This document shows, in pieces, positions 42,420 to 61,470 of a DNA stretch of 64,000 nucleotides (positions are counted from its first letter, which is position 1; the number at the start of each line of letters is the position of its first letter). Source of the DNA: Ornithinimicrobium ciconiae (lineage in GTDB: Bacteria > Actinomycetota > Actinomycetes > Actinomycetales > Dermatophilaceae). The notes below the pieces were generated by a model. The model made no database searches and had not been told where the DNA came from. It saw only the letters and a program-made list of their open reading frames with translations. The stretch is from the NCBI RefSeq assembly GCF_007197575.1, contig NZ_CP041616.1, forward strand, positions 744,001 to 808,000. The letters are read 5' to 3'. A program made the translations under genes and the position numbers.

Positions 42420-42556
42420 GATCAGTCCTCCCTCGCTGCCGCTGGCGTCAGTATGCCGCCGAGTCGCCCCATCTCGGACGCCCCCAGGAGCGCTGTGATG
42501 GGGGTCACAACGAATCGCCCTTGCTAAAGCTATGCGTCCGGGTGCATGGTTATGTC

Positions 42557-42604: not shown

Positions 42605-42624
42605 CCACTACCGAGACGCGTCCT
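42586..42624 (+). promoter_or_regulatory. ilvB attenuator pause/antiterminator stem
   Basis: AGGACGCGTC (42586-42595) pairs perfectly with GACGCGTCCT (42615-42624) around the leader stop codon. It competes with formation of the terminator that begins at 42625. Confidence 0.75.
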
Positions 42625-42658
42625 ACCTCCGTTGCCCATCTGGGTCGGAGGTTTTTTT
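42625..42658 (+). terminator. ilvB attenuator terminator
   Basis: ACCTCCG pairs with CGGAGGT (stem starting 42625, closing 42651), with CCCA and TGGG pairing inside, followed by a run of seven T (42652-42658). This is an intrinsic terminator placed between the leader peptide and ilvB. Confidence 0.9.
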
Positions 42659-42686
42659 GTACCCGGAACCAGCCAGAGAGAGAACG

Positions 42687-44504
42687 ATGACTGCTCAGCC
42701 CACGCATCCAGCGCCTGCCGAATTGGCCGCGCTGCCGAGCACGACGACCGGTGCCGAGGCACTCGTGGACGCGCTCCTTCGCGTAGGGGCCGAGCACATT
42801 TTTGGCCTCCCCGGTGGTGCGGTCCTGCCGCTCTACGACGCGCTGTACACCCGCCCCGAGCTCCGCCACATCCTGGTCCGCCACGAGCAGGGCGCCGGAC
42901 ATGCCGCCCAGGGCTACGCGGCGGCGACCGGCAGGGTCGGGGTCTGCCTGGCCACCAGCGGGCCCGGCGCGACCAACCTGGTGACCCCGCTGGCCGACGC
43001 CAACATGGACTCGGTGCCGATGGTGGCCATCACCGGCAACGTGCCCAGCACCGCGCTGGGGTCGGACGCCTTCCAGGAGGCCGACATCCGCTCGATCACG
43101 ATGCCGGTGACCAAGCACAGCTTCCTGGTCACCGACCCGGCCAAGATCGGTCCGACCGTCGCCAGTGCCTTCCGGCTGGCGGCCAGCGGCCGACCCGGCC
43201 CGGTGCTGGTCGACGTCAGCAAGGACGCCCTGACGGCGACCACCCAGCGCCTGACCTCGGGTGACCTTCGGCTACCGGGCTATCACCCGGTGACCGAGCC
43301 CGCCGCCGAGGCCGTGCGGGACGCGGTTGCGCTGATGGTGACCGCCCGTCGCCCGGTGCTCTATGTCGGGGGAGGGACGATCCGGTCCGGAGCGCACCGC
43401 GAGCTGCGCGCGCTGGCCGAGCTGACCGGCATGCCGCTGGTCACCACCCTGATGGCCCGGGGCGTGTTCCCCGACAGCCACCCCCAGAACCTGGGGATGC
43501 CGGGGATGCACGGCACCGTCGCCGCCGTCGGTGCGCTGCAGAAGTCGGACCTGATCATCGCCCTGGGCGCGCGCTTTGATGACCGGGTCACCGGTGTGCG
43601 GGACTCCTTCGCACCGCACGCCCGGGTCATCCACGCCGACATCGACCCCGCCGAGATCGGCAAGGTCCGTCCGGTCGAGGTCGGTCTGCTGGGCGACTGC
43701 CGGGCGACCATCGCCGCGCTGACCGCCGAGTTCCGCAGCCAGGTCGAGGCCGGCAACGTCCCGGACTACACCGAGTGGGTCACCTTCTGCGAGCGCACCC
43801 GCGAGCGCTACCCGCTGTCGTATGACGCACCCCCGCCCGGTGAGATGGCACCCCAGCAGGTGATCCAGCGCCTCGGGGAGATCGCCGGACCGGACGCGAT
43901 CTTCACCTCGGGCGTCGGGCAGCACCAGATGTGGGCGGCCCACTATCTCGGTTTCGAGCGGCCCAACACGTGGATCAACTCCGGTGGGCTGGGCACGATG
44001 GGCTACTCCGTGCCGGCGGCGATGGGAGCCAAGGTCGGACGGCCGGACGCCACCGTCTGGTCCATCGACGGCGACGGTTGCTTCCAGATGACCAACCAGG
44101 AGCTGGCCACCTGCGCTGTCGAGGGCATCCCGATCAAGGTGGCGATCATCAACAACGGCACCCTGGGCATGGTCCGGCAGTGGCAGACGCTGTTCTACAA
44201 CGAGCGCTACAGCAACACCGGCTTGCGGGGCACCCCCTCGCGGCCGGAGGCCCGCACCCCGATCCACGTGCCCGACTTCGTGATGCTGGCTCGCAGCTAT
44301 GGCTGTGAGGCGCTGCGCTGCGAGGACCCGGCCGACATCGACCGCACGATCGAGACGGCCATGGCCATCGACGACGTCCCGGTGGTCGTGGACTTCCGAG
44401 TCCACCAGGACGCGATGGTGTGGCCGATGGTCGCCTCCGGCACCAGCAATGACGACATCAAGTACGCCCGTGACCTCGCGCCCCAGTTCGAGGAGGACGA
44501 CTGA
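42687..44504 (+). CDS. ilvB: Acetolactate synthase large subunit
   Basis: First common step of valine, leucine and isoleucine synthesis. The protein has 605 residues: Pyr domain with catalytic Glu67 in [14 protein letters not shown]; central FAD-binding domain ([22 protein letters not shown] landmark); PP domain with TPP/Mg motif [17 protein letters not shown] and [16 protein letters not shown] 42687 is preceded by GAGAGAGAA. It is under an attenuator, and ilvN, ilvC and ilvD follow. Its stop overlaps the start of a 23-codon frame at 44504. Confidence 0.96.
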
Positions 44505-44575
44505 TGACCGACCGCCACCCCTGGCGCAGCCTCCTGATTATCCGAGTCCGGGTGGGGGCCGGGCATCTCAGCTAG
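44504..44575 (+). CDS. Candidate second leader peptide between ilvB and ilvN
   Basis: A 23-codon frame whose ATG shares a base with the ilvB stop (TGATG). It contains SLLIIRVRVGAG, again dense in Leu, Ile and Val codons. Two GC-rich hairpins follow: GGTCCGCG/CGCGGACC near 44590-44608 and GGGCGGC/GCCGCCC near 44620-44640. There is no T run. It may be a translated regulator of ilvN or simply a chance frame. Confidence 0.4.
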   Translation: MTDRHPWRSLLIIRVRVGAGHLS

Positions 44576-44700
44576 CGACCACCGAACGGTCCGCGTCGCG
44601 CGGACCACCACAGATCACCGGGCGGCAACGACGCCGCCCGAGCACACGACATACACCTGTCGCCGCAGTCCCGCGGTGACGCCAACGTAGGGAGCACACC

Positions 44701-45021
44701 ATGAGCCGTCACGCACTGTCTGTCCTGGTCGAGAACAATCCGGGTGTCCTGGCCCGGGTCTCGGTCCTGTTCGCCCGCCGCAGCTTCAACATCGACCACC
44801 TGGTGGTCGGCCCCACCGAGGACCCCAAGGTCTCCCGGATGACCATCGTGCTCAACGTCGGTGACGAGCAACTGCACAAGGTGACCAGCCAGCTAGACAA
44901 GCTGATCGAGGTTATCCACATCGAGGAGCTGTCCGACCCGTCTGCGATCCGCGACCAGCTGTGGGCGATCAACGACAACGGGCCGCGCCCGGTCGGTGCG
45001 ATGGCCGCTGCCTGGGCCTGA
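44701..45021 (+). CDS. ilvN: Acetolactate synthase small (regulatory) subunit, short form
   Basis: The regulatory partner of IlvB, giving valine feedback. The protein has 106 residues. The ACT domain is complete: HALSVLVENNPGVLARVSVLFARRSFNIDHL (landmark over about 4-34) and SRMTIVLNV. The C-terminal domain (about 70-80 residues in the ~165-residue actinobacterial IlvN/IlvH) is absent, so it resembles the ACT-only E. coli IlvN (~96 residues). No trace of the missing half is seen downstream in any frame. AGGGAG precedes ATG 44701. Confidence 0.88.
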   Translation: MSRHALSVLVENNPGVLARVSVLFARRSFNIDHLVVGPTEDPKVSRMTIVLNVGDEQLHKVTSQLDKLIEVIHIEELSDPSAIRDQLWAINDNGPRPVGAMAAAWA

Positions 45022-45100
45022 CCGTGCTGGGAAGGGCATGACGCAGCGGTCGCCGTGCCTGCCCGTGCCACACCTCCCCAAAGTTCCGCGAAACCCGTAA

Positions 45101-47925
<2,825 letters not shown>

Positions 47926-47993: not shown

Positions 47994-48043
47994 GAACGTT
48001 TCACCAACGGCGCGTGCCGGACCTGTCGCCACAGTGGCAGCGC

Positions 48044-48088: not shown

Positions 48089-49099
48089 ATGAGACAGCGG
48101 ATCCTGGCGCTTGGCACGGCAGTGGCGGTAGTCCTCGGCCTGGCCGGCTGTGGGGGCGGGGGTGCGGGCAGTGGCGTCACCATCCTGCGGGTCGCGCTCA
48201 ACCAGACCGAGACCCACCCGTCGTATGTCGCGCTGGCCAACTACAGCGACCGGCTCGAGGCGCAGACCGACGGGCGGATGCGGCTGGACATCTTCCCCAA
48301 CGAGACGCTCGGTGCCCAGGCCGAGGTGCTGCAGCTGCTCAGCGACAACATCATCGACCTGGGCATCATCTCCGGGTCCCAGATGGAGAACCTGAGCAAG
48401 GACTTCCTGGTGCTCAACATGCCGGGTGTCTTCGACTCCGTCGAGCACCAGATGCCGGTCGTGCATGACCCGGAGATCGTCGGGGAGCTCTACACCTCCC
48501 TGGAGGACAGCAACGACCTCACGGTGATGGGTGGGTTCACGCAGGGGTCTCGGCACATCTACGTCAAGGACGAGATCAGCTCCCTCGCTGACCTTGATGG
48601 CGTCAAGATCCGCGTCCAGGAGAGCGAGCTGAACCTGGCCATGGTGCGCGCCCTGGGCGGGTCGCCCACGCCGATGGCCTTCGGCGAGGTCTACACCGCA
48701 CTGCAGTCCGGTGTGCTGGACGGCGCCGAGAACAACGAGGTCAGCTACTTCACCCAGAAGCACTTCGAGGTCGCCCCCTACTTCACCAACTCCAACCACC
48801 TGGTCGGACTGGACTACATGGTGGCCAGCACCGAGATGCTCGAGAATCTCGACCCCGCCGACCGCCAGTTGCTCGAGGATGAGTGGGTCAACACCTATCT
48901 GGACCACACCGAGCTCTGGGGTGAGGCCACGCAGGAGGCCATCGACGGTGCCAGAGCGGGCGGCGCAGAGTGGATCGAGATCGACCAGGCAGCGGTCCAG
49001 GCCGCGCTGGAGCCGCTGGCCGATACCTTCCTCACCACGCCCGTGCAACGAGAGCTCTACGACAAGATCCGCGCTGCGGCGCCGAGCCAGGAAGGCTGA
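48089..49099 (+). CDS. TRAP transporter substrate-binding lipoprotein
   Basis: Extracytoplasmic solute receptor (DctP family) that delivers a carboxylate-bearing ligand to the DctQM membrane pair. The protein has 336 residues, lipobox LAGC with Cys21, as in Gram-positive bacteria. Landmarks are the helix-strand YSDRLEAQTDGRMRLDIFPNETLG, IDLGIISGSQM and the specificity region GVKIRVQESELNLAMVRALGGSPTPMAFGEVYTALQSGVLDGAENN (a landmark across about 172-218), with Arg174 the family's carboxylate-binding arginine. GGAAGG lies before ATG 48089. The ligand is inferred to be a hexuronate from the neighbours. Confidence 0.92.
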   Translation: MRQRILALGTAVAVVLGLAGCGGGGAGSGVTILRVALNQTETHPSYVALANYSDRLEAQTDGRMRLDIFPNETLGAQAEVLQLLSDNIIDLGIISGSQMENLSKDFLVLNMPGVFDSVEHQMPVVHDPEIVGELYTSLEDSNDLTVMGGFTQGSRHIYVKDEISSLADLDGVKIRVQESELNLAMVRALGGSPTPMAFGEVYTALQSGVLDGAENNEVSYFTQKHFEVAPYFTNSNHLVGLDYMVASTEMLENLDPADRQLLEDEWVNTYLDHTELWGEATQEAIDGARAGGAEWIEIDQAAVQAALEPLADTFLTTPVQRELYDKIRAAAPSQEG

Positions 49100-49100
49100 C

Positions 49101-49607
49101 GTGGAACCGATCAAGAAGGGGCTGGACCAGGTGCTCAAGGGCGCCTCGGTGGTCCTGTTCGCCCTGCTGGTGGTGATTGTCGTCTGGCAGGTCTTCACCC
49201 GACAGGTGCTCAACTCACCCAGCGCGTGGACCGAGGAGCTGGCCCGCTACACGTTCGTGTGGGTCGGTCTGTTCGCCACGGCACTGGTCTTCTCGGAGCG
49301 TGGTCACATCGCGGTGGACTTCGTGGTGGACAAGTTCTCACCGCGAGTGCAAAAGGTCGTTGCCGTCTGTGTCCAGCTGTCGATCATCCTCTTCGCCCTC
49401 GCCGTGCTGGTGTACGGCGGACTGCGTGCGGCCAACGGCGCCTGGAACCAGTCGCTCAGCGCCCTGCCCACCCAGGTCGGCGTGATGTATCTCGCGATGC
49501 CCATCGTCGGGGTGCTGATCGCCTTCTATGCGGTCTATCACCTCCAGGCCGTCCTGCGTGGTGCTGAGGAAGCCATCGCGCACGAGGAAGACCCCCAGGT
49601 GGTGTGA
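49101..49607 (+). CDS. TRAP transporter small permease
   Basis: The four-helix DctQ subunit, 168 residues. Landmarks are WQVFTRQVLNSPSAWTEELARYTFVWVGLFATALVFSERGHIAVDF over about 30-75 and four hydrophobic helices. GAAGG precedes GTG 49101. It lies one base after dctP and 2 bases before dctM, in one operon. Confidence 0.92.
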   Translation: MEPIKKGLDQVLKGASVVLFALLVVIVVWQVFTRQVLNSPSAWTEELARYTFVWVGLFATALVFSERGHIAVDFVVDKFSPRVQKVVAVCVQLSIILFALAVLVYGGLRAANGAWNQSLSALPTQVGVMYLAMPIVGVLIAFYAVYHLQAVLRGAEEAIAHEEDPQVV

Positions 49608-49609
49608 CC

Positions 49610-50920
49610 ATGGATCCCATTGCACTCGCGGCGATCGTCCTGGTCGGCACGATCGTCATCGGCATCGTCTTCTCCGTCCCGATCGCGGTCAGCATCGGCC
49701 TCGGGTCCTTCTTTGCCGCGATCGTCCTGCTCGACGTCGAGAAGGCTGCCCTGGTCTCCAGCCAGCGGCTGTTCACCGGCATCAACTCGTTCACCCTGCT
49801 GGCGATCCCGTTCTTCGTGCTCGCCGGCGTGCTGATGAACACCGGTGGCATCGCCGGCCGCCTGATCGACGCCGCCAAGGTGCTCGTGGGCAGGACGCCG
49901 GCCAGCCTGGCCAACACCAACGTCGTGGCCAACGCGATGTTCGGAGCCGTCAGTGGTGCCGCGGTGGCTGCCGCCGCGGCCATCGGCACGGTGATGACTC
50001 CGCGGATGAAGGAGGAGGGCTACGACCCGAAGTGGTCGGCTGCCGTCAACGTCGCGTCTGCCCCGGCCGGCATGCTGATCCCGCCAAGCAACACCTTCAT
50101 CGTCTATTCACTGGTCAGTGGTGCCTCGATCTCCGCGCTGTTCATGGCGGGGGTGATCCCGGGGATGATCTGGGCCGGTGCCTGCATCCTGGTCGTGCTG
50201 CTGACCTATCGCCGGTTCAGCACCCCTCAGCCGCCGTCGTCGGTGACCTTCTCGGAGGCATTGCTGGTCATCTGGCGGGCCGTCCCGTCACTGCTGATGA
50301 TCGTCGTGGTGATCGGTGGCATCGTCAGCGGCATCTTCACCGCGACCGAGTCGTCGGCCATCGCGGTCGTCTATTGCCTGGTCCTCGGCTTCGCCTATCG
50401 GACGATCGGTGTCTCGGACCTGCCCAAGGCGCTGCTGGACGCCGCCCGCACCACGGCCATCATCATGCTGCTGGTCGGTGTCTCGACGGCCCTGTCCTTT
50501 GTGATGAGCTTCTCCCACATCCCCCAGGCCGTGTCCGACGGGCTGCTCGGGCTCACGGACAGCCCGCAGGTGATCTTGTTCCTGATGATGATCATCCTGC
50601 TGCTGGTCGGCACCTTCATGGACCCGACTCCCGCGATCCTGATCTTCACCCCGATCTTCCTGCCGATCGTCACGTCCTTCGACATGAGCCCGGTGCACTT
50701 CGGCACGATGATCGTCTATGCCCTCTCCGTCGGTGTCATCACCCCGCCCGTCGGCAACGTGCTCTTCGTCGGGGCACGCGTCGCGGGGATGGGCATCGAA
50801 CCCGTCGTCGGCAAGCTGATCTGGTTCCTGCTGGCCCTGGTCGGCGGACTGCTGCTGGTGATCTATGTCGAACCGCTGTCGCTGTGGATCCCGGAGATGC
50901 TGGGGCTGCTCGGCGACTAG
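49610..50920 (+). CDS. TRAP transporter large permease
   Basis: The 12-helix DctM subunit, 436 residues, of the sodium-driven TRAP system. Landmarks are PFFVLAGVLMNTGGIAGRLID, VSGAAVAAAAAIGTVMTPRMKEEGYDP and TPPVGNVLFVGARVAG-like ITPPVGNVLF near the end. ATG 49610 is chosen; GTG 49604 overlaps the dctQ stop. The stop is 3 bases from that of convergent larB. Confidence 0.93.
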   Translation: MDPIALAAIVLVGTIVIGIVFSVPIAVSIGLGSFFAAIVLLDVEKAALVSSQRLFTGINSFTLLAIPFFVLAGVLMNTGGIAGRLIDAAKVLVGRTPASLANTNVVANAMFGAVSGAAVAAAAAIGTVMTPRMKEEGYDPKWSAAVNVASAPAGMLIPPSNTFIVYSLVSGASISALFMAGVIPGMIWAGACILVVLLTYRRFSTPQPPSSVTFSEALLVIWRAVPSLLMIVVVIGGIVSGIFTATESSAIAVVYCLVLGFAYRTIGVSDLPKALLDAARTTAIIMLLVGVSTALSFVMSFSHIPQAVSDGLLGLTDSPQVILFLMMIILLLVGTFMDPTPAILIFTPIFLPIVTSFDMSPVHFGTMIVYALSVGVITPPVGNVLFVGARVAGMGIEPVVGKLIWFLLALVGGLLLVIYVEPLSLWIPEMLGLLGD

Positions 50921-50923
50921 CAG

Positions 50924-51664
50924 TCAGGCGCTGGCGGCGATCTGCGCGGCCAGGTGTCCGGCGCCATAGCCGTTGTCGATATTGACGACGGCCACCCCGG
51001 GAGCGCACGCGTTGAGCATCGACAGCAGCGGTGCCAGCCCGTCCAGGGCCGCGCCGTAGCCCACCGAGGTCGGCACGCCGATGACCGGGGCGCAGGCCAG
51101 GCCGGCGACCACGCTGGCCAGCGCGCCGTCCATCCCGGCCACCACCACGATGGCCGAGGCGGCGGCGATCTGGTCGACGCGCGCCAGGATGCGGTGCAGG
51201 CCCGCGACGCCCACGTCGACGACCAGCTCGGCCGGCCGGCCGAGGTGCTGGGCGGTCAGCAACGCCTCGCGCGCCACCGGGATGTCGGCCGTCCCGGCGC
51301 ACAGGACCAGGACGGTGCCACCGCTGGGCTCCGGCACCGGACCCGGCCAGGCGACGATGCGGGCCACCGGGTCGTGGACCGCGCCGGGCAGCTCCGCGCA
51401 GACGGCCTCGGCCTGGCTCGCTGATGCGCGGGTGAACAGGATCGTGCCCAACGGGTCGCCCCCGTCGGAGCGACCGCGCTCACCGATGGCACGGGCGATC
51501 GCGACCAGGTGCTCCATCGTCTTGCCCTCGCAGAGCACCGCCTCGGGATAGCCGCGCCGTGCGGCCCGGCCGAAGTCGAACTCCGCGATGCCCTCGAGGC
51601 TGGTGGTCGGCGGGGAAGCTGGGGTGCCGGGCTGGTCAGCTGGAGTGCCGGGCGGGTCAGCCAC
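50924..51664 (-). CDS. larB: Nickel-pincer cofactor biosynthesis protein LarB
   Basis: Carboxylates the pyridinium ring of nicotinic acid adenine dinucleotide and releases AMP, the first step to the nickel-pincer nucleotide (NPN). The protein has 246 residues: an N-terminal region with FDFGRAARRGYPEAVLCEGKT, then an AIR-carboxylase-like (PurE-like) fold with LVLCAGTADIPVAREALLTAQHLG and VAGMDGALASVVAGLACAPVIGVPTSVGYG (a landmark over about 171-200). The start overlaps the larE stop by 8 bases, in the gnd-larE-larB operon. Confidence 0.94.
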   Translation of the reverse strand: MADPPGTPADQPGTPASPPTTSLEGIAEFDFGRAARRGYPEAVLCEGKTMEHLVAIARAIGERGRSDGGDPLGTILFTRASASQAEAVCAELPGAVHDPVARIVAWPGPVPEPSGGTVLVLCAGTADIPVAREALLTAQHLGRPAELVVDVGVAGLHRILARVDQIAAASAIVVVAGMDGALASVVAGLACAPVIGVPTSVGYGAALDGLAPLLSMLNACAPGVAVVNIDNGYGAGHLAAQIAASA

Positions 51665-52619
51665 GGGACACGAGCGGCATCGTGAACGCGCCGGACTGGA
51701 TGCCGACCAGGTCCAGGGCCACGAACCGGAAGCCGGCGGCGCGCACCCCCTCGACGAGGGCGGTGCGGACCTGCGGGTCGGCCGCGCGGGCCAGCTCGTG
51801 GTCGGTCAGCTCCAGACGCGCGACGTCGTCGTGGTGGCGAACCCGGCAGTCCGAGAAGCCCAGGGCGCGCACGGCCGCCTCGGCCCGGTCGATCTGGGTC
51901 AGCTTCTCCGGGGTGACCTCCTTGAAGTGCGGGATGCGCGAGGCCAGGCACGGGGCCGCCGGCTTGTCCGCATTGGGCAGGCCGAGGGCGGCGGCCACCG
52001 CCCGCACGTCGGCCTTGGTCAGCCCCGCGTCGGCCAGCGGCCGGAGCACGCGGTGTTCGGTGGCGGCGCGGGCACCCGGGCGGTCCGGCCGGATCGCGTC
52101 GTCGGCGTTCTCGCCATAGCTGATCGCGGTGAGCCCGTGGGCCACGGCGACGTCGTCGTCGATGCGGGCGAACAGCTCGTCCTTGCAGTGGAAGCAGCGG
52201 TCCGGCCCGTTGGCGCGATAGGCCTGCGACGACCCCTCGTCCGTGGGCACCTCGACGACGCCGACCCCGATCTGGCCGGCGATGTCGTGGGCGGCCGCCC
52301 GCTCGACGGTGGCCAGGCTCGGAGAGACGCCGAGTATGGCGACAGTCCGGTCGGCCCCCAGCGCGCGGACCGCGACGGCCAGGAGGGTGGTGGAGTCCAC
52401 GCCGCCGGAGTAGGCCACACCTAGCCTGCCCTCAGCAGGCAGGTGCGCGGTGACGGCCTCGATCAGGGCCGCGACCTCGGCGGAGACGCCCTGGTGGGCG
52501 TCGACCCGCGCGGCGACCGGCAGGTCCGCCCCGCCGGTGAGCAGGGTGGCCGGGGGGGTGCTGGGGACTCCGGCCTGGGAGACCTCAACAACGGGAAGGA
52601 GACGATGGGTGTCGACCAC
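51657..52619 (-). CDS. larE: Sacrificial sulfur transferase LarE
   Basis: ATP-dependent enzyme that converts the two carboxylates made by LarB to thiocarboxylates in NPN synthesis. The protein has 320 residues. The PP-loop is SGGVDS (71-76). Cys224 in AAPCLASRIP corresponds to the sacrificial cysteine of LarE (Cys176 in Lactobacillus plantarum). RCFHCKDELF carries Cys142 and Cys145. The start GTG 52619 directly abuts the gnd stop (TGA|GTG), showing that the cofactor genes are expressed with 6-phosphogluconate dehydrogenase. Confidence 0.94.
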   Translation of the reverse strand: MVDTHRLLPVVEVSQAGVPSTPPATLLTGGADLPVAARVDAHQGVSAEVAALIEAVTAHLPAEGRLGVAYSGGVDSTTLLAVAVRALGADRTVAILGVSPSLATVERAAAHDIAGQIGVGVVEVPTDEGSSQAYRANGPDRCFHCKDELFARIDDDVAVAHGLTAISYGENADDAIRPDRPGARAATEHRVLRPLADAGLTKADVRAVAAALGLPNADKPAAPCLASRIPHFKEVTPEKLTQIDRAEAAVRALGFSDCRVRHHDDVARLELTDHELARAADPQVRTALVEGVRAAGFRFVALDLVGIQSGAFTMPLVSRG

Positions 52620-54044
52620 TCAGATCTCCACCTCGCTCCGGTCCCCGGACCAGAGCGTGTGGAAGGTGCCGGGCTTGTCGATGCGCGTATAGGTGTGGGC
52701 GCCGAAGAAGTCACGCAGACCCTGGACCAGGGACGCGGGCAGCCGCTCCGACCGGACCGTGTCGTAGTAGGCCAGCGCCGCACTGAAGCCCGGCACCGGG
52801 ACACCGGCCTGGGTGGCCACTGCGACGACGTGACGCCACGCGTCCTGGGAGTTGCCCAGCTCGGCCGCGACCGACGGGGCGGCGAGCAGGGTGGCCAGGT
52901 TCGCCCCGGCATACTCCTGGCGGATCCGCTCGAGCAGCTTGGCCCGGATGATGCAGCCGCCGCGCCAGATGCGGGCCACCTCGGAGATGTTGACGTCCCA
53001 GCCATAGGTGTCACTGGCGGTGCGGATCTGGTCCAGACCCTGGGCGTAGGCGACCACCTTGGAGCTCCACAGGGCGGCGCGCACCGCGTCCACGAGCGCC
53101 GCGCGGTCGTCGGTGGAGATCGTGCGGTCCGGGCCGGTCAACCCCTGCGAGGCCTCACGCAGGCCCGTGTGGCCGGAGGTGGAGCGGGCAAAGACGGACT
53201 CGGCGATCGTGTTGACCGGCACCCCCAGCTCGAGGGCGATCTGCACGGTCCAGCGGCCGGTGCCCTTCTGCTCGGCCTGGTCGGTGATCACCTCGACGAG
53301 GGGTCTGCCGTCGACCTCCTGGTCGAGCACCTCGGAGGTGATCTCGATCAGATAGGAGTCCAGGTCGCCGGTGTTCCACTCGCGGAAGACGTCCGAGACC
53401 TCGCGGGCGGTCATCCCGGCCGCCGTGAGGATGTCGTAGGCCTCGGCGATGAACTGCATGTCGGCATACTCGATGCCGTTGTGCACCATCTTGACGAAAT
53501 GACCGGCGCCGTCGGTGCCCATGTAGGCGCAGCAGGGCTCCCCGTCGACCTTGGCCGAGATGTCCTCCAGCAACGGGCCGAGCGCGGCATACGACTCAGG
53601 GCTGCCACCGGGCATGATGCTCGGTCCCTTGAGGGCGCCCTCCTCACCACCGGAGATGCCCGCCCCCACGAAGTGCAGCCCGACCTCGCGCAGCGCAGCC
53701 TCCCGCCGACGGGTGTCCTCGTAGTGCGCGTTGCCGCCGTCCACCACGATGTCGTCCTTCTCGAGCAGCGGGATCAGCTGCTCGATCACGGCGTCGGTGC
53801 CCAGGCCGGCCTGGACCATGATGATCACCTTGCGCGGTCGCTCCAGGGCGGCCACGAACTCCTCGAGGGTGGGCGCCGCCACGAAGGTGCCGTGCGCGCC
53901 GAAGTCGGCGCTGAAGGTCTCGGTCCTGGCGACGGTGCGGTTGTAGACCGCCACCGTGTGGCCCCGGGAGGCGAAGTTGCGGGCGAGGTTGCTGCCCATC
54001 ACGGCCAGACCGATCACGCCTACCTGAGCTGTTGCTGCGACCAT
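52620..54044 (-). CDS. gnd: 6-phosphogluconate dehydrogenase (decarboxylating)
   Basis: Oxidises 6-phosphogluconate to ribulose 5-phosphate and CO2, usually with NADP. The protein has 474 residues, the long dimeric type. Landmarks are GVIGLAVMGSNLARNFASRG (cofactor), VDGGNAHYEDTRRREAAL, GAGISGGEEGALKGPSIMPGG and GHFVKMVHNGIEYADMQ, with the catalytic Lys and His/Asn pair. It leads gnd-larE-larB; start ATG 54044. In this locus it would drain 6-phosphogluconate made by GntK. Confidence 0.95.
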   Translation of the reverse strand: MVAATAQVGVIGLAVMGSNLARNFASRGHTVAVYNRTVARTETFSADFGAHGTFVAAPTLEEFVAALERPRKVIIMVQAGLGTDAVIEQLIPLLEKDDIVVDGGNAHYEDTRRREAALREVGLHFVGAGISGGEEGALKGPSIMPGGSPESYAALGPLLEDISAKVDGEPCCAYMGTDGAGHFVKMVHNGIEYADMQFIAEAYDILTAAGMTAREVSDVFREWNTGDLDSYLIEITSEVLDQEVDGRPLVEVITDQAEQKGTGRWTVQIALELGVPVNTIAESVFARSTSGHTGLREASQGLTGPDRTISTDDRAALVDAVRAALWSSKVVAYAQGLDQIRTASDTYGWDVNISEVARIWRGGCIIRAKLLERIRQEYAGANLATLLAAPSVAAELGNSQDAWRHVVAVATQAGVPVPGFSAALAYYDTVRSERLPASLVQGLRDFFGAHTYTRIDKPGTFHTLWSGDRSEVEI

Positions 54045-54178
54045 GTCTTCTCCTGTGGGTGGGGACCTGCGCTTGGGCCTACTCTCCCCAACCCGGCGGA
54101 CGTTCACAAGAGGAGGGTCCCGGACCTGGTCAGACCCCACCACTAGAGACTTGCCGACAGACCGGGTTGGATGGAGGC
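54045..54178. promoter_or_regulatory. Divergent control region gnd/uxaC
   Basis: The 134 bases between the start codons of gnd and uxaC must hold both promoters. TGGTCAGACCC (54127-54137) agrees with a GntR/FadR-type half-site pattern TNGTNNNACNA except for its last base and contains the palindrome GGTC-A-GACC. I do not see clear -35/-10 pairs. Confidence 0.45.
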
Positions 54179-55588
54179 ATGGGCACTGCAGCACTGCATC
54201 CGGACCGCCTCCTCCCCGCTGACCCCGGCACGAGGAAGATCGCCAGGGAGCTCTATGCGGCGGTGCAGGACCTGCCGATCATCAGCCCGCACGGTCACGT
54301 GCCGCCGGAGTGGTTGGCCCAGGACACGCCATTCAAGGACCCGACCTCCCTGCTGCTGAGCCCCGACCACTACATCTTCCGGATGCTGCACGCCGCCGGC
54401 GTGCCGCTCGCCGAGCTCGGGGTCGGGGGCGCTGAGCTGGACGAGGCGGGAGCCCGCCGGGCCTGGGCGCACCTGTGCGAGCACTGGCACCTCTTCCTCG
54501 GCACACCGGTGCGCTACTGGCTCGAGGACGAGCTGGTCGGCATCTTCGGCTTCACCCAGACGCTGTCGCCGCAGACCGCCGACGCCAGCTATGACCGGAT
54601 CGCCGAGGTCATCGCGGGTGAGAACTTCCGGCCCCGTGCCCTCATGGAGCAGTTCGACATCTCGGTGCTGGCCACCACGGACGACCCGTGCGACGACCTG
54701 GCGCACCACGCCGCGCTCGCTGCGGACGACACCTTCGACCGGCGGGTGCTGCCGACCTTCCGCCCGGACAAGTATCTCGAGCCCGGCCGCCCCGACTTCG
54801 CTGACCTGGTCGCCCGCCTGGGCGAGGTCTCGGGTGAGGACACCGGGTCGTATGCCGGCTACGTGGCGGCCCTCGAGAACCGGCGCCGCTACTTCGCCGA
54901 GCACGGTGCCGTCTCCAGCGACCACAGCCACGCCGATGTCGTGACCCTCGCCCTGGAGGAGTCGGAGGCCGCCCGGATCTATGCCGGGGCGCTGGCCGGC
55001 ACCGCCACGCAGGATGAGTCCACCGCGCTGCGCCGGCACATGCTGGTCGAGATGGCGCGGATGGCGACCGAGGACGGCCTGGTCATGACGCTGCACCCCG
55101 GGTCCTACCGCAACCACCACGAGCCGACGCTCGAAGCGCACGGACCGGACACCGGCCACGACATCCCGATCCAGATGGAGTTCACCCGTGGGCTGCAGCA
55201 CCTGCTCAGCCGGTTCGGCACCGCCGACGGGTTCAAGCTGATCCTGTTCACCCTCGACGAGACGGTCTTCAGCCGCGAGATCGCGCCACTGGCCGGTTTC
55301 TATCCGAGTGTGTATGCCGGGGCGCCCTGGTGGTTCCTCGACGCACCGGAGGCGATCGGTCGCTATCGCTCAGCGGTGACCGACACGATCGGCTTCTATC
55401 GCACCTCGGGCTTCATCGACGACACGCGGGCCTTCTGCTCCATCCCGGCCCGGCACGACATGTCGCGGCGGCTGGACAGCGGCTTCCTCGCCAGGCTCGT
55501 CGCCGACCACCGGCTGCGTGAGGAGGACGCGCACCAGATCGCCATAGACCTGGTCACCACGATCCCTTCCGCGGCGTTCAACCTCTGA
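54179..55588 (+). CDS. uxaC: Glucuronate isomerase (uronate isomerase)
   Basis: Turns D-glucuronate into D-fructuronate (and galacturonate into tagaturonate). The protein has 469 residues, amidohydrolase-type TIM barrel. Landmarks are LPIISPHGHVPPEW with the metal His pair, SPDHYIFRMLHAAGV, LATTDDPCDDLAHH and CSIPARHDMSRR near the end. GGAGG lies close before ATG 54179. It begins the operon uxaC-uxuB-gntK-larA-homologue-acetyltransferase. Confidence 0.94.
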   Translation: MGTAALHPDRLLPADPGTRKIARELYAAVQDLPIISPHGHVPPEWLAQDTPFKDPTSLLLSPDHYIFRMLHAAGVPLAELGVGGAELDEAGARRAWAHLCEHWHLFLGTPVRYWLEDELVGIFGFTQTLSPQTADASYDRIAEVIAGENFRPRALMEQFDISVLATTDDPCDDLAHHAALAADDTFDRRVLPTFRPDKYLEPGRPDFADLVARLGEVSGEDTGSYAGYVAALENRRRYFAEHGAVSSDHSHADVVTLALEESEAARIYAGALAGTATQDESTALRRHMLVEMARMATEDGLVMTLHPGSYRNHHEPTLEAHGPDTGHDIPIQMEFTRGLQHLLSRFGTADGFKLILFTLDETVFSREIAPLAGFYPSVYAGAPWWFLDAPEAIGRYRSAVTDTIGFYRTSGFIDDTRAFCSIPARHDMSRRLDSGFLARLVADHRLREEDAHQIAIDLVTTIPSAAFNL

Positions 55589-55600
55589 GAGGCAGGCCTG

Positions 55601-56980
55601 ATGAGTGAGCAGCGACTGAGTCGCCAGGAGCACGGTCGCCCGGTCGCGCCGGTGCGGATGGTCCACCTGGGTGTCGGCAACTTCTTCCGCGCCCACCAGG
55701 CGTGGTTCACCGAGCACTCGCAGGACGCCGCGGAGTGGGGCTATGCCGCCTTCACCGGCCGCTCCGCCGGGGTCGCCGACGACCTTGCGGCCCAGGACGG
55801 GATCTACACCCTCCTCGTGCGCGAGCCCGACGGGGACCGGCCGGAGGTGGTCAGCTCGCTGAGCGCCGTCCACCCGGGGAGGGATCTCGCCGCGCTGCGC
55901 GGCTACTTCGCCTCGCCGGAGCTGGCGCTGGTCACCAGCACCGTCACCGAGGCGGGCTATCGCCGCGACACTGAGGGCGGGCTGGACCTGACGGACCTGG
56001 ACGTGGCTGCGGACATCGAGGCGCTGCGGGCTGACCCGGAGAGCAGCGAGGTGAGCACGACCCCGGGCCGTCTGGTGGCCGGCCTCCTCGCCCGCCGCGG
56101 CGCTGATGCCGGGCCGATCGCGCTGGTGCCGTGCGACAACGTGCCCGACAACGGCGCGATGGTCGCCCGAGTCGTGCGCGACCTGGCCGAGCAGGTCGAC
56201 CCGACGCTGGTCGACTGGATCGAGGCCAACGTCACCGTCGTGACCACGATGGTCGACCGGATCACCCCGCGTGGCACCGACGAGGACCGCGACACCGTTG
56301 GCGAGCTGCTGCACGTGGACGACCCGCAGGTCGTGGTCACCGAACCGTTTGCCGAGTGGGTGCTGGCCGGCGAGTTCCCCCGCGGGCGGCCGGAGTGGCC
56401 AGGTGCCCAGTTCGTCGACGACGTCAGCAAGCACGAGCAGCGCAAGCTGTGGCTGCTCAACGGCTCACACTCCCTGATGGCCTATGGCGCCTCGATCCTG
56501 GGTCACGAGACCGTGTCGGCCGCGATCGGGGACGAGACGGTGCGGGGCTGGGTGGAGGAGTGGTGGGACGTGGCCGCCGCACACCTCGAGGTCGACGCGG
56601 ACGAGGTCGCCGCCTATCGCCAGGCCCTGGTGGAGCGCTTCGCCAACTCACGGATCCGCCACCTGCTCGCGCAGATCGCCGCGGACGGCTCGCAGAAGGT
56701 GCCGATCCGGTTCGGTCCGGTGCTCGCGGGCGAGGTGGCTGCCGGACGCTCACCGGCCGGGGCCACCCGCCCGGTCGCCGCCTGGATCGCGCACCTGCAC
56801 GGCCACGGGGCCCCGGTCACCGACGCCCAGCAGGACCGGGTGGCCGAGGTGGCCGCCGCCGAACCGGCCGAGGCGGTCCGGACCGTGCTCGGCTGGATGG
56901 GCATCGACGCACCGGCGGACGACTTGGTCTCGCAGGTGCTGGGTCAGATCGCCGCCCTCGAGGCCGCGGCATCCTCATGA
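55601..56980 (+). CDS. uxuB: Mannitol dehydrogenase family, probable fructuronate reductase
   Basis: An NAD-dependent oxidoreductase of the long-chain mannitol dehydrogenase family, 459 residues. Start MVHLGVGNFFRAHQAWFTEH is the cofactor fold; catalytic motif Lys282-Asn287-His290 is in KLWLLNGSH. Family members include mannitol dehydrogenase, fructuronate reductase and tagaturonate reductase. With uxaC upstream, fructuronate to mannonate is the best assignment; sequence alone cannot separate it from tagaturonate reduction. It lies 12 bases after uxaC and overlaps gntK by 4 bases. Confidence 0.85.
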   Translation: MSEQRLSRQEHGRPVAPVRMVHLGVGNFFRAHQAWFTEHSQDAAEWGYAAFTGRSAGVADDLAAQDGIYTLLVREPDGDRPEVVSSLSAVHPGRDLAALRGYFASPELALVTSTVTEAGYRRDTEGGLDLTDLDVAADIEALRADPESSEVSTTPGRLVAGLLARRGADAGPIALVPCDNVPDNGAMVARVVRDLAEQVDPTLVDWIEANVTVVTTMVDRITPRGTDEDRDTVGELLHVDDPQVVVTEPFAEWVLAGEFPRGRPEWPGAQFVDDVSKHEQRKLWLLNGSHSLMAYGASILGHETVSAAIGDETVRGWVEEWWDVAAAHLEVDADEVAAYRQALVERFANSRIRHLLAQIAADGSQKVPIRFGPVLAGEVAAGRSPAGATRPVAAWIAHLHGHGAPVTDAQQDRVAEVAAAEPAEAVRTVLGWMGIDAPADDLVSQVLGQIAALEAAASS

Positions 56981-57501
56981 CCCGGCACGTGGTGGTGATG
57001 GGAGTCTCGGGGTCGGGCAAGAGCACGATCGCCGCCCTGGTGGCCGAGCGCGTCGGGTGGACCTTCGCCGACGCGGACTCCTTCCACCCTGTGGCCAACA
57101 TCGACAAGATGCGCGCCGGCATCCCCCTCACGGACGCCGACCGGCGACCCTGGCTCCTCGCGCTGGCCGAGTGGATGGCCGAACAGGGACGGGCGGGGAA
57201 GTCGACCGTGCTCGCGTGCTCGGCGCTGATGCGCAGCTATCGCGACCTGCTCAGGACCCACGTCCTGGCGGAGTTCGTCCACCTGCACGGACCTGCGGAG
57301 CTGATCGAGGCCCGGATGCGGGCCCGGGACCACTTCATGCCCGCGAGCCTGCTCACCTCACAGTTCACCATCCTGGAGGAGCTGCAGGAGGACGAGCGCG
57401 GCGTGGTCCTCGATCTGGTGCTGACCCCCGACCAGCTCGTCGACGCGGCCGTCGCGTGGTTGGATCGCGGCCCCCTGGAATCCTTCGGCCCCCAGGACTA
57501 G
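56977..57501 (+). CDS. gntK: Gluconokinase
   Basis: Phosphorylates D-gluconate to 6-phosphogluconate. The protein has 174 residues of the GntK/shikimate-kinase-like fold. P-loop GVSGSGKST (9-17), then ADADSFHPVANIDKMRAGIPLTDADRRPWL (landmark, about 32-61) and CSALMRSYRDLLR are family signatures. The ATGA overlap with uxuB couples their translation. A gluconate kinase in a glucuronate operon is explained if mannonate is turned into gluconate. Confidence 0.93.
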   Translation: MTRHVVVMGVSGSGKSTIAALVAERVGWTFADADSFHPVANIDKMRAGIPLTDADRRPWLLALAEWMAEQGRAGKSTVLACSALMRSYRDLLRTHVLAEFVHLHGPAELIEARMRARDHFMPASLLTSQFTILEELQEDERGVVLDLVLTPDQLVDAAVAWLDRGPLESFGPQD

Positions 57502-57511
57502 GTTGGCCGTC

Positions 57512-58807
57512 ATGACCTGGTTCAAGCACGAGGCCAAGCCCATCGACCGCGCGACCATCGAGGAGATGATCGAGCGGACCCTGACCGAAGCCAAGGAGCG
57601 GCTCGGGATCGCGTCATACACCCGGGTCCTGCTGCTGCCGCCGGACATCACCCGCGCCCACGCCGGTGTCGGCTGGATGACCGAGCACTTCTACAACCTG
57701 CTCACCGAGCAGGGCGCGGACGTGCACCTCATCCCGACCCTCGGCCAGCACGTCCCGCACACCCCTGAGGACAACCGGTGGATGTTCGGGAACATCCCGG
57801 AGGAGCGGATCCACGTCCACGACTGGAAGAACGGGGTCACCAACGTCGGCACGGTGCCGGCGGAGTTCGTCCGGGAGCAGACCGGTGGCGCCGTTGACTG
57901 GGAGATTCCGATCGACCTCAACACCATGACGGTCACCGAGGACTGGGACCTGATCATCAACATCGGCCACGTCGTGCCGCACGAGGTCCTGGGCTATGCC
58001 AACCACAACAAGAACTACTTCATCGGGCTCGGTGGCAAGCGGCTGCTCGGCTCCTCGCACATGGCCTCGGCGGTCTATGGCATCGAGAACAACCTGGGCA
58101 ACCTCATCACCCCCGTGCGGCACTGCTTCAACTATGCCGAGGAGCACTTCCTGGGCGACCTCAAGGACCTCTACTTCCAGGTCGTGATGGACTACGACGA
58201 CAACAGCCAGCTGGTGCACACCGGGGTGTATGTCGGCGACGACCTGGACACCTACCTGGACGCCGCGCGGGCCTCCAAGGCGCAGAACATCACGGCCTTC
58301 GACGAGCCGGTCGACAAGATTGTCGCCGTCATGCAGGCCGATGAGTTCCGGGCGACCTGGGTGGCCAACAAGGCCGTCTATCGCACCCGGATGGCCATCG
58401 CCGACGGCGGTGAGCTGCTCGTCATCGCCCCCGGTGTCGAGCGTTTCGGAGAGCAGCCCGAGGTCGACGAGCTGATCCGCAAGTACGGCTACCTGTCCCA
58501 GTCCGAGGTGCTCGAGCTCTATCGGACCGAGGCCGACATGCAGGACATCCCGCACGGCACCGCGCACCTGGTGCACGGCTCGTCCGAGGGGCGCTTCACG
58601 ATCACCTACGCCCCCGGTGCCCTCTCCCAGGAGGACATCGAGTCCGTGGGTTACCAGTACATGTCGCTCGAAAACGCCCTGGAGCGCTACAACCCGGACG
58701 TGATGAAGGACGGCTGGAACGAGATGCCCGACGGTGAGCGGGTTTTCTACATCTCCACCCCGTCGGCCGGTCTGTGGGCCACCAAGGAGAAGCTTGGCGA
58801 TCGCTGA
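57512..58807 (+). CDS. LarA-family nickel-pincer racemase/epimerase homologue
   Basis: A 431-residue LarA-like (DUF2088) protein, a family using the nickel-pincer nucleotide to invert 2-hydroxy acids by hydride transfer. VPPDIT-like PPDITRAH (43-50) and TLGQHVPHTPEDN (His80) lie in the N-terminal half. His157 in VPHEVLGY, Lys167 in NHNKNYF and His183 in SSHMAS keep the spacing (10 and 16) of His174, Lys184 and His200 in L. plantarum LarA: catalytic base, covalent cofactor lysine and nickel ligand. Placement after gntK suggests a mannonate/gluconate 2-epimerase; that substrate is inference. It lies 10 bases after gntK. Confidence 0.88.
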   Translation: MTWFKHEAKPIDRATIEEMIERTLTEAKERLGIASYTRVLLLPPDITRAHAGVGWMTEHFYNLLTEQGADVHLIPTLGQHVPHTPEDNRWMFGNIPEERIHVHDWKNGVTNVGTVPAEFVREQTGGAVDWEIPIDLNTMTVTEDWDLIINIGHVVPHEVLGYANHNKNYFIGLGGKRLLGSSHMASAVYGIENNLGNLITPVRHCFNYAEEHFLGDLKDLYFQVVMDYDDNSQLVHTGVYVGDDLDTYLDAARASKAQNITAFDEPVDKIVAVMQADEFRATWVANKAVYRTRMAIADGGELLVIAPGVERFGEQPEVDELIRKYGYLSQSEVLELYRTEADMQDIPHGTAHLVHGSSEGRFTITYAPGALSQEDIESVGYQYMSLENALERYNPDVMKDGWNEMPDGERVFYISTPSAGLWATKEKLGDR

Positions 58808-58863
58808 GCCACCGGGTCCTGACCGACGCCCTGCCGCCGCGACCGTTTGGAAAGGTGAATGCC

Positions 58864-59439
58864 ATGAACCTGCAGGACTTTCTGGACCACGTGAACAGCG
58901 GGGCGCTGGTCGAGGCCGGCTCCGAGGCCCACGCCTATATGCACGGCCGGGCTCAGGAGGCGCTGCGGATCCTGGCTGACCTCAATGGCAGCTACCGCAC
59001 CCCGGAGGAGGTGCGGGACCTGCTGTCGCAGCTGACTGGCCGACCGGTCGATGAGTCGGTCGCGCTGTTCCCACCGTTCTACAGCGAGTTTGGTCAGAAC
59101 CTGCGGCTGGGCAAGGGAGTCTTCATCAACATCGGCTGCCGGTTTCAGGACACCGGTGGCATTACGATCGGCGACGGCTCGTTGATCGGCCACGGCAGCA
59201 CCCTGACCACGCTCAACCACGGGATGGATCCGCAGCGACGCGGCGACATGCTCCCTGCCCCGATCGTGATCGGACAGAAGGTGTGGTTGGGGGCGTCGGT
59301 GACGGTCGTGCCCGGCATCACGATCGGCGACGGCGCCGTGGTGGGTGCCGGAGCCGTGGTGACCAAGGACGTCCCAGCCAACACGATCGTCGCGGGCGTG
59401 CCGGCCAGGGTCATCCGCGAGACCGGCTTCGAGGCCTGA
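58864..59439 (+). CDS. Hexapeptide-repeat sugar O-acetyltransferase
   Basis: A 191-residue left-handed beta-helix acetyltransferase like LacA/maltose acetyltransferase. The N-terminal helical part (to about 70) is followed by hexapeptide repeats (ITIGDGSLIGHGSTLTTLNHG, with catalytic His in TTLNHGMD) and closing PANTIVAGVPARVIRE. GAAAGGTGA lies about 6 bases before ATG 58864. It lies 56 bases after the LarA homologue and is probably the last gene of the operon. It may detoxify excess sugar or sugar acid by acetylation; the acceptor is unknown. Confidence 0.87.
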   Translation: MNLQDFLDHVNSGALVEAGSEAHAYMHGRAQEALRILADLNGSYRTPEEVRDLLSQLTGRPVDESVALFPPFYSEFGQNLRLGKGVFINIGCRFQDTGGITIGDGSLIGHGSTLTTLNHGMDPQRRGDMLPAPIVIGQKVWLGASVTVVPGITIGDGAVVGAGAVVTKDVPANTIVAGVPARVIRETGFEA

Positions 59440-59547: not shown

Positions 59548-61470
59548 ATGCCTTCCGTGCATCCGTTGCTCGACCGTGTCCTCGCCGACCCCGACGGGTT
59601 GTCCTGGGCGCTGCTGTGGCGCGAGGAGGGCCCCGAGGTCGAGCTCCTCGTCGGTGACGTGCACGACGTCGGGGAACTGGCCGACATACCTGCCGCAGAG
59701 CTGGAGCACCCCGTCCTCGCGATGGTGCCCTTCCGGCAGATCACTGAGCGAGGCTTCGACGCCCACGACGACGGGGCGCCGCTGCGCGTCCTGGTCGCCA
59801 CCGAGGTGGCGCGCCTCAAGGTCGACGAGGTGGTCGCCGCCCTACCGACGGACCCGGTCGAGGTGACCGACGAGCGGTTCAGCGTCTCTGACGAGGACTA
59901 TGCGCAGATCGTGCGCCGGGTCATCGAGGACGAGATCGGCAACGGGGCAGGCGCCAACTTCGTCATCCGCCGTGACGTCCTGGCCCGGACCGAGACCGCC
60001 CCGGCGCGGGCCGCGCTGACCTGGTTCCGGACGCTGCTGACCGACGAGCGCGGCACCTACTGGACCTTCGCGGTGCGCACCCCCGGGCACACCCTGGTGG
60101 GGGCTACCCCCGAGCGGCACGTCTCGCTCCGCGCCGGTCGCGTGCGGATGAACCCGATCTCCGGCACCTTCCGGCACCCGGCGGACCCGGCGGAGCTGGA
60201 GCCGTCCTTCCGGCGCTTCATCGCCGACACCAAGGAGACCGAGGAGCTCTTCATGGTGGTCGATGAGGAGATGAAGATGATGTCCCAGATCTGCACCGAC
60301 GGGGGGCGGATCACCGGGCCCTACCTCAAGCAGATGGCGCACCTGACCCACACCGAGTACCTCCTGGACGGCCGTGCCGAGGCGAACCCGAGGGACGTGC
60401 TCCGGGCGACCATGTTCGCGCCCACCGTGACCGGCTCCCCGATGGAGAACGCCTGCACCGTGATCACCCGGCACGAGCCGGGCGGCCGGCTCTACTACTC
60501 CGGGGTGCTCGCCCTGCTGGAGCGGGAGGGCGACGGACGCGGTATGCCGGATGGTCCCGGTGCCGCCGACGACCCGGAGGCCGCTGGCCCAGAATCCCTG
60601 GACGCACCCATCCTGATCCGTGCGGCACATCTCGGCGAGGACGGCACGGTGACCGTGAGTGCCGGCGCGACGCTGGTGCGGCACTCCGACCCGGTCTCGG
60701 AGGTGGCGGAGACCACCGCCAAGGCCAGCGGGATGCTGGCCGCGCTGGGGCTGCGCCCGCGCCGCCTGATCCGGCAGACGCCCGAGCTTGCCGAGCTCCC
60801 CGGGGCGCGGGAGGCACTCGAGGCGCGCAACGAGACCCTGGCTGCCTTCTGGCTGTCCCCGCAGGAGCCGCGGCCGGACCCGGTGCTGATCGGCGTCGAC
60901 GTCCTGGTCGTTGACGCGGAGGACATGTGGACCCAGATGCTGGCCCACCAGCTGCGGCACCTCGGGTTGACCGCGCGGGTGAGCCGATGGGACCAGGTCG
61001 ACGTCGAGGAGATCGCCGGACCCGACCTGGTGCTCTTCGGGCCTGGCCCGGGGGACCCGGACGATCCCGCAGATCCGCGGCTGGCGCACCTGCGCCGGTT
61101 GATCGGCGCGCGGGTGGCCTCGGGGGCGCCCCTGCTGGCGGTCTGCCTGAGCCACCAGGTGCTCTCCCGCCTGGCAGGCCTGGAGATCAGCAAGCTGGAC
61201 CGCCCCAACCAGGGGGTCCAGCTCGAGGTCGACCTGTGGGGGACCCCGGCGCGGATCGGGTTCTACAACACCTTTGTCGCCAGGCCGGGAGCCGCAGTGC
61301 TGGACCGGGCGGGGGAGCGGGTGGAGCTGGAGGTGTCCAGCGATCCGGTGCACGGGGTCGTGGCGCTGCGCGGCCCGGGCATCGCGACCATCCAGGGCCA
61401 CGCGGAGTCGGTGCTGTCCCGCGACGGGCTGGTGACGCTGCACGCGATGATCCGGCACGCCCTGGATTGA
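59548..61470 (+). CDS. PhzE-like chorismate enzyme (synthase plus glutaminase fusion)
   Basis: A 640-residue fusion of an anthranilate-synthase-type chorismate domain and a class I glutaminase. The N-terminal MVPFRQITERGFDAHDDGAPL matches the PhzE opening (LIPYRQIAERGFEALDDGTPL-like, from memory). Landmarks of the first domain are RMNPISGTFRHP, DEEMKMMSQICTDGG and TVTGSPMENA. Glutaminase nucleophile Cys533 lies in AVCLSHQVLS; His618 and Glu620 in QGHAES. PhzE makes 2-amino-2-deoxyisochorismate for phenazines. No other phz gene is near, so the product could be ADIC or anthranilate. Confidence 0.87.
   Translation: MPSVHPLLDRVLADPDGLSWALLWREEGPEVELLVGDVHDVGELADIPAAELEHPVLAMVPFRQITERGFDAHDDGAPLRVLVATEVARLKVDEVVAALPTDPVEVTDERFSVSDEDYAQIVRRVIEDEIGNGAGANFVIRRDVLARTETAPARAALTWFRTLLTDERGTYWTFAVRTPGHTLVGATPERHVSLRAGRVRMNPISGTFRHPADPAELEPSFRRFIADTKETEELFMVVDEEMKMMSQICTDGGRITGPYLKQMAHLTHTEYLLDGRAEANPRDVLRATMFAPTVTGSPMENACTVITRHEPGGRLYYSGVLALLEREGDGRGMPDGPGAADDPEAAGPESLDAPILIRAAHLGEDGTVTVSAGATLVRHSDPVSEVAETTAKASGMLAALGLRPRRLIRQTPELAELPGAREALEARNETLAAFWLSPQEPRPDPVLIGVDVLVVDAEDMWTQMLAHQLRHLGLTARVSRWDQVDVEEIAGPDLVLFGPGPGDPDDPADPRLAHLRRLIGARVASGAPLLAVCLSHQVLSRLAGLEISKLDRPNQGVQLEVDLWGTPARIGFYNTFVARPGAAVLDRAGERVELEVSSDPVHGVVALRGPGIATIQGHAESVLSRDGLVTLHAMIRHALD

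Follow-up and report, generated by a model that had tools for sequence, protein, structure and literature searches.

A predicted glucuronate catabolic gene cluster with a group-18 LarA homologue and no recognisable LarC in Ornithinimicrobium ciconiae

The window analysed here, a 64,000-nucleotide stretch of the Ornithinimicrobium ciconiae genome (contig NZ_CP041616.1), contains a gene cluster at window positions 48089–59439 in which a homologue of the nickel-dependent enzyme LarA lies among genes of hexuronate and gluconate metabolism. The eleven genes named there by the initial annotation were all found in open frames, and their products matched the expected families in profile searches (Table 1). 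The host genome is a single contig of 4.09 Mb that is 99.99% complete. Gene starts are those of the listed open frames, the longest frame being used for larE, whose start codon is uncertain because the profile match begins at residue 55. Two tight runs, gnd-larE-larB to the left and uxaC-uxuB-gntK-larA to the right, diverge from a 134-base region, and dctPQM lies on the + strand, tail to tail with larB. The longest larE frame begins at the base adjoining the gnd stop and overlaps larB, and gntK overlaps uxuB by 4 bases.

Table 1. Features of the cluster in window coordinates, with the profile match or other basis of each assignment.
Feature	Position	Strand	Basis
dctP, TRAP solute-binding protein, predicted D-glucuronate binder	48089..49099	+	PF03480
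dctQ, TRAP small permease	49101..49607	+	PF04290
dctM, TRAP large permease	49610..50920	+	TIGR00786, 392 bits, cut-off 268
larB, NPN cofactor synthesis, carboxylase/hydrolase	50924..51664	-	NF033503, 252 bits, cut-off 175
larE, NPN cofactor synthesis, sulfur insertase	51657..52619	-	TIGR00268, 264 bits, cut-off 150
gnd, decarboxylating 6-phosphogluconate dehydrogenase, long NADP type	52620..54044	-	PRK09287, 691 bits, cut-off 413
gnd/uxaC divergent intergenic region, presumed promoters	54045..54178	.	flanking gene starts
uxaC, glucuronate isomerase	54179..55588	+	PRK02925, 570 bits, cut-off 387
uxuB-like polyol/hexonate dehydrogenase, inferred fructuronate reductase	55601..56980	+	PF01232 + PF08125
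gntK, gluconokinase	56977..57501	+	TIGR01313, 173 bits, cut-off 114
larA homologue, group 18, predicted D-mannonate/D-gluconate 2-epimerase	57512..58807	+	NF052594, 579.5 bits, cut-off 500
hexapeptide acetyltransferase	58864..59439	+	PF00132

The LarA homologue scored above the cut-off of NF052594, a model entitled 'nickel-dependent putative hexonate epimerase', and from the model name (NPN_18, for the nickel-pincer nucleotide, NPN) we took this family to be group 18 of Desguin 2020 (PMC7583248). The gluconate 2-epimerase clade of LarA homologues mentioned in the initial annotation does exist, in the form of the assayed GntE enzymes of groups 19 and 20, but the present enzyme belongs to NF052594. 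Its nearest solved structure was Thermotoga maritima GntE2 (LarAH20, PDB 4nar), with 25% identity in the structural alignment, and its nearest named relatives were Ornithinimicrobium proteins of 94% and 90–91% identity. In the alignment to 4nar, residues R48, K167, H183, D45, H80, H157, and K287 matched R75, K184, H200, D72, H108, H174, and K298 of LarA; the residues before 184 were also aligned to the lactate racemase 2yjg, as a weak match (E 0.18). The cofactor-binding and catalytic residues were invariant in 81/81 sequences, and so were E158 and V159, corresponding to the EV/S signature that PMC7583248 describes for the loop following the second catalytic histidine. D-Gluconate 2-epimerases (GntE) carry E, V, A, and H at four specificity positions; A351 and H352, the candidates for the last two, were likewise invariant, their register against LarA W358/T359 being uncertain in the alignments. 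A tandem pair of larA homologues was observed behind gnd in a Kiritimatiellales metagenome-assembled genome (MAG; locus L070, 4383–6943).

The uxaC product was the sole PF02614 match in the host genome. The gene described initially as fructuronate-reductase-like encodes a protein with the Mannitol_dh and Mannitol_dh_C domains, which upholds the superfamily but not the narrower name, as every NCBIfam score was below cut-off. The protein contains the motif KLWLLNGSH at residue 282, and its solved relatives are the mannitol dehydrogenase 1lj8 and YdfI (4im7). We infer from the gene context that its substrate is fructuronate.

The best solved relatives of DctP were solute-binding proteins of tripartite ATP-independent periplasmic (TRAP) transporters, namely 4n91, 4mij, 4mhf, 4n15, and 4ln5. 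According to PMC7660916, which gives the ligand residues, 4n91 and 4mhf bind D-glucuronate; two arginines and one asparagine are conserved among the D-glucuronate binders, and Apre_1383 adds Asn, Gln, Glu, and Asp. When DctP was aligned to 4n91, all seven ligand positions were occupied by corresponding residues (N38, Q39, E72, R155, R175, N215/N216, and D242), in a presumed register, since the residues in that paper are numbered by STM3169. DctP is thus predicted from its sequence to bind D-glucuronate.

The canonical mannonate dehydratase UxuA (PF03786) had no match in the complete host genome (the search across the genome did not extend to kdgK and eda), so that the absence of uxuA noted for the cluster extends to the whole chromosome. 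The dehydratase ManD was considered as an alternative and rejected: the genome has four enolase-superfamily genes, none of which reaches the ManD cut-off. Two of them were nearest to muconate cycloisomerase, below all cut-offs, and one of these matched ManD at 86 bits (cut-off 550); the other two were o-succinylbenzoate synthase and enolase.

The gene context of the group-18 enzyme was compared across 80 larA loci, with up to 10 kb on each side (many loci end early at contig ends), and in 52 genomes, comprising those of 50 of the 80 named loci, the host genome (G000), and G136. Control genomes were actinobacterial, from families other than that of the host, and carried LarA of other groups (34 genomes for LarC and 28 for UxaC). 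UxaC was found in 50/52 genomes with the group-18 enzyme versus 3/28 with a LarA below the NF052594 cut-off. The distance from uxaC to larA or larB was 12 kb or less in 28 of the 52 genomes, including 18 of the 23 of the actinobacterial clade. In the 80 loci, the clusters matched near larA were larB/larE (28 loci), uxaC (16), a short-chain dehydrogenase/reductase (SDR) of KduD/mannonate-oxidoreductase type (14), gnd (12), UxaE (10), an FGGY kinase (9), and uxuB (8), where the SDR, UxaE, and FGGY clusters were each annotated from one representative; by tblastn, dctP was near larA in 7/80 loci. Ten stretches, belonging to Georgenia, Flaviflexus, Occultella, and Ruania, had larA at a separate place and larE-larB still within 12 kb of uxaC, with gnd present in the latter three genera and not in the four Georgenia. 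The set of genes thus recurs in varying subsets, also outside actinobacteria, and its recurrence in other phyla disfavours a chance origin. A separate arrangement was seen in five Propionibacteriaceae MAGs (L050, L051, L052, L055, and L056): larA stands behind a lipoate-protein-ligase-like gene with larB/larE on the other side, a DEAD-box-helicase-like gene lies beyond larB/larE in four of the five, and each of the four genomes that were searched carries uxaC on a different contig.

Taken together, we consider it probable that the cluster is a glucuronate catabolic module leading to ribulose 5-phosphate. D-Glucuronate would be imported by DctPQM and converted by UxaC and the fructuronate-reductase-like enzyme to D-mannonate, the LarA homologue would likely invert C2 to give D-gluconate, and GntK followed by Gnd would yield 6-phosphogluconate and then ribulose 5-phosphate. 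This is the best reading of the locus because the epimerase homologue belongs to NF052594, its nearest solved structure is GntE2, UxuA is absent, and the enzyme family is associated with UxaC; the route bypassing UxuA that the initial annotation had put forward consequently has good backing from its genomic context, the family to which the enzyme is assigned, and the nearest solved structure, with its biochemistry predicted from sequence. Redox would balance over the whole route, with UxuB spending one reductant and Gnd producing one NADPH, and the two divergent runs would keep the pathway and cofactor synthesis together. By analogy with other LarA enzymes, H80 and H157 would act as the two acid/base residues, and the hydride would be held on the pyridinium of the pincer cofactor, itself bound by K167 and H183.

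The group-18 enzyme could instead act on another hexonate or on an aldarate, such as altronate, galactonate, or glucarate, with the gnt and gnd genes serving free gluconate. Desguin 2020 suggests only 'a hexonate' for group 18 and doubts that group 19 acts natively on mannonate. However, the context repeatedly combines UxaC, a UxuB- or SDR-type reductase, gluconokinase-like kinases, and gnd, in varying subsets, and gluconate is the C2 epimer of mannonate; we therefore regard a different substrate as quite unlikely. Since this recurrent context exchanges unrelated enzymes at the reductase and kinase steps, it points to mannonate entering and gluconate leaving the reaction. An SDR of T. maritima, UxaD, has mannonate oxidoreductase activity (PMC5673643).

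The order of the last steps could also be reversed, the GntK-like enzyme phosphorylating D-mannonate and the LarA homologue acting as a 6-phosphomannonate 2-epimerase that gives 6-phosphogluconate directly. The gene set of the window suits either order. Yet GntK of the window and the FGGY kinases of nine loci belong to unrelated families and are both closest to gluconokinases, and GntE2 acts on unphosphorylated D-mannonate. We prefer epimerization before phosphorylation and consider the reversed order unlikely.

Several observations weigh against the route through mannonate and gluconate as we draw it. Mannonate kinase and 6-phosphomannonate 2-epimerase activities, the genes for which are not known, have been reported from Lactobacillus suebicus (PMC6978723), and the kinase may likewise precede the epimerase here. 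Group 18 was not among the LarA groups assayed in PMC7583248, and the available text of PMC11770544, the tree of which predicts functions for about half of the LarA homologues, has 0 occurrences of the group. The KM values of GntE1 and GntE2 for D-mannonate are as high as 120 and 17 mM (PMC7583248), and the native hexonate could for that reason differ from D-mannonate. The uxuB-like reductase scored highest as D-arabinitol 4-dehydrogenase (DalD; 229 bits of the 600 at cut-off), followed by fructuronate reductase (211 of 603). A GntK-type gene stood beside larA in just 2/80 loci (tblastn), neither the SDR nor the FGGY representative reached the cut-off of its model (mannonate oxidoreductase and gluconokinase, respectively), and a PfkB-type kinase weakly similar to kinases of 2-keto-3-deoxygluconate (KDG) occurred near larA in three loci (L064, L068, and L070; cluster 39). 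In one control genome (G028), uxaC shares a contig with a LarA that scores below the group-18 cut-off, so that the link to UxaC is not exclusive to group 18. UxuA was above cut-off in 10 of the 52 genomes with the group-18 enzyme; in G309 (contig 50) it shares a contig with uxaC and larA, and in G323 (contig 58) it is 1.4 kb from larB, so that both mannonate routes may coexist. Finally, LarC was not found in the host genome, and an active metal cofactor is consequently not assured. As a further observation, a UxuA-like match in G334 (C10:567283–569715) ends approximately 660 bases from a LarC gene, with larA on another contig.

The missing LarC was examined in the wider set of genomes. The established pathway proceeds from LarB through LarE to LarC, and nickel is inserted by LarC (PMC11770544, PMC11796402), the only nickel-inserting enzyme that the texts consulted name for this cofactor. 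The statement of the initial annotation that LarB and LarE build NPN is accordingly correct in that both genes are present and score above cut-off but incomplete with regard to LarC, for which the host genome had no PF01969 match at E<=0.001 and no TIGR00299 match at E<=1. Among the 52 genomes with the group-18 enzyme, LarB was above cut-off in 50 and LarE in 51, and LarC (PF01969, E<=0.001) was found in 15, with 11 matches near full length and 4 fragments; TIGR00299 was above cut-off in 12. The other 37 genomes (the host and 36 among G296–G345) gave no PF01969 match, and 35 of these had LarB and LarE above cut-off. LarE of G327 is split and below cut-off. The genomes counted as lacking LarC include G321, with a weak TIGR00299 match (19.5 bits, cut-off 90), and nine more with chance-level TIGR00299 matches (E 0.04–0.9). 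LarC was present in 34/34 control genomes (Fisher p 2e-12, with related genomes treated as independent).

Within the actinobacterial clade, 22 of 23 genomes lacked LarC, the exception being Micropruina with a partial LarC1, and members without LarC occur in several phyla. The partial LarC1-like gene of Micropruina glycogenica (G317:C1:773023–773865, locus L222) is possibly a relic or a frameshifted LarC. On the LarA tree, the LarC state changes 9 times with the active site unchanged, and 6 of these changes are forced by well-supported branches; the tree was a quick one without bootstraps, it includes MAGs, and some LarC absences may be assembly gaps. Other LarA copies were rejected as a full account of the pattern: where the group-18 enzyme is the sole PF09861 match (42 genomes), 34 genomes have no LarC and 8 have a LarC match, and 3 of the 10 genomes with more than one PF09861 match have no LarC.

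We also screened for a LarC substitute near larB/larE, requiring that a family occur in at least 3 stretches and at least 2 phyla. No candidate was present within 6 kb in 38 stretches from 34 genomes without LarC (genes elsewhere were not surveyed). The families passing the screen were larA, gnd, uxaC, SDR, UxaE, gntK, and three others in 3–4 stretches, one of them a PfkB-type kinase; frames taken, from where they lie, to be shadows on the opposite strand of larA, larB, and larE were also returned. Ten neighbours annotated singly were three LacI regulators, AP_endonuc_2, GFO_IDH_MocA, two CNNM proteins, an MFS transporter, an SDR, and a PfkB kinase.

The LarE sequence contains SGGVDS at 71, CFHC at 142, and CLASR at 224 and is thereby of the CXXC-C type, which is the [4Fe-4S] type in PMC9283937; the protein is predicted to hold such a cluster. 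The CXXC motif and third cysteine were present in 41 of 42 LarE frames near these genes, the exception being a 97-residue fragment.

The adjoining LarB and LarE would begin cofactor synthesis, and because the host genome has no recognisable LarC, metal insertion would fall to another protein or to novel chemistry. The invariance of the nickel ligand H183 suggests that the LarA homologue still carries a metal. Alternatively, the NPN branch could be decaying, LarC being lost and the LarA homologue metal-free and inactive, with glucuronate consumed by some other route or left unused. The absence of LarC from the host and 36 further genomes agrees with this, but the invariance of the cofactor and catalytic residues in all 81 sequences, the retention of LarB and LarE in 35 of the 37 genomes, and the spread of such members over several phyla make decay very improbable. 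We rate as evenly balanced the broader proposal that a large clade of LarA hexonate epimerases in actinobacteria, acidobacteria, and others works without LarC, with LarB and LarE making the pincer ligand and the metal being supplied by a second insertase, replaced by another metal, or dispensed with. No report of a system lacking LarC was found in the literature, including the available text of PMC11796402, PMC8305020, PMC12611868, PMC9283937, and PMC11770544 (subscription papers, supplements, and figures were outside the scope).

Rodionova et al. 2012 (as cited in PMC6978723 and PMC7583248) had already proposed a mannonate-to-gluconate route in T. maritima, and close relatives of the enzyme with similar neighbours occur outside actinobacteria. 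The novelty that the initial annotation had thought possible in a full route in an actinobacterium is therefore not borne out, and the route is a variant of an already proposed kind, not a new kind. The two systems have in common a LarA-family hexonate epimerase with conserved catalytic and NPN residues and the proposal that hexuronate degradation leads on to gluconokinase and 6-phosphogluconate dehydrogenase. They differ in that GntE2 belongs to group 20, UxuA and LarC are both present in the T. maritima control genome and both missing from the host genome, and the TRAP transporter lies inside the cluster only in the present case. Corynebacterium glutamicum GntE1 (LarAH19) is also actinobacterial, acts on mannonate/gluconate, and is encoded in a uronic-acid gene context (PMC7583248), but it belongs to group 19. 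The C. glutamicum control genome had LarC and no LarA match, perhaps because it is from another strain than the source of GntE1.

The galacturonate route of L. suebicus similarly leads from mannonate to 6-phosphogluconate and the phosphoketolase side without KDG and is redox-neutral (PMC6978723), but the kinase acts first there, followed by the 6-phosphomannonate 2-epimerase. The canonical UxaC-UxuB-UxuA-KdgK-Eda pathway shares the first two steps and departs at UxuA. Lactiplantibacillus plantarum LarABCE has in common with the cluster a LarA-type enzyme, LarB, and LarE, but LarC is recognisable only there, and L. plantarum LarE is without the CXXC-C motif (PMC9283937). NPN on L. plantarum LarA produced a protein mass shift of 450.2 Da (PMC11796402), whereas the adduct of the present enzyme may be non-covalent. 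No paper was found on this gene set or on Ornithinimicrobium with glucuronate.

The results give a LarA group outside those assayed a specific, testable substrate, and they suggest that a mannonate-to-gluconate shortcut is a recurring means of glucuronate use in bacteria without UxuA. Such a shortcut would produce pentose phosphate with balanced redox, which would be useful for uronate-rich plant feedstocks. The cofactor without LarC is the part that a specialist should find surprising: either a second organometallic insertase awaits discovery, or the rule that nickel is inserted by LarC fails for group 18. Complete genomes without LarC, such as those of the host and Terriglobus roseus DSM 18391, allow a direct test of the metal question.

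The acetyltransferase gene, which the initial annotation had counted as part of the locus, is present but not conserved with the other genes, a similar gene occurring in 2/80 larA loci, and it is probably a bystander. Similar 28-base stretches with 20 identical bases were seen ahead of dctP and in the gnd/uxaC intergenic region (window 48000–48030 and 54100–54130); an operator common to the two upstream regions was rejected, as the likeness was not kept in two relatives. Directly upstream of the cluster (window 42546–47925, + strand) are branched-chain amino acid genes, including the acetolactate synthase large subunit and ketol-acid reductoisomerase, and the frame at 46120–47925 is presumably, by eye, a dihydroxyacid dehydratase. 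Downstream (window 59548–61470, + strand) lies an anthranilate/isochorismate synthase-like gene, below all cut-offs, the C-terminal part of which resembles the amidotransferase end of anthranilate synthase fusions.

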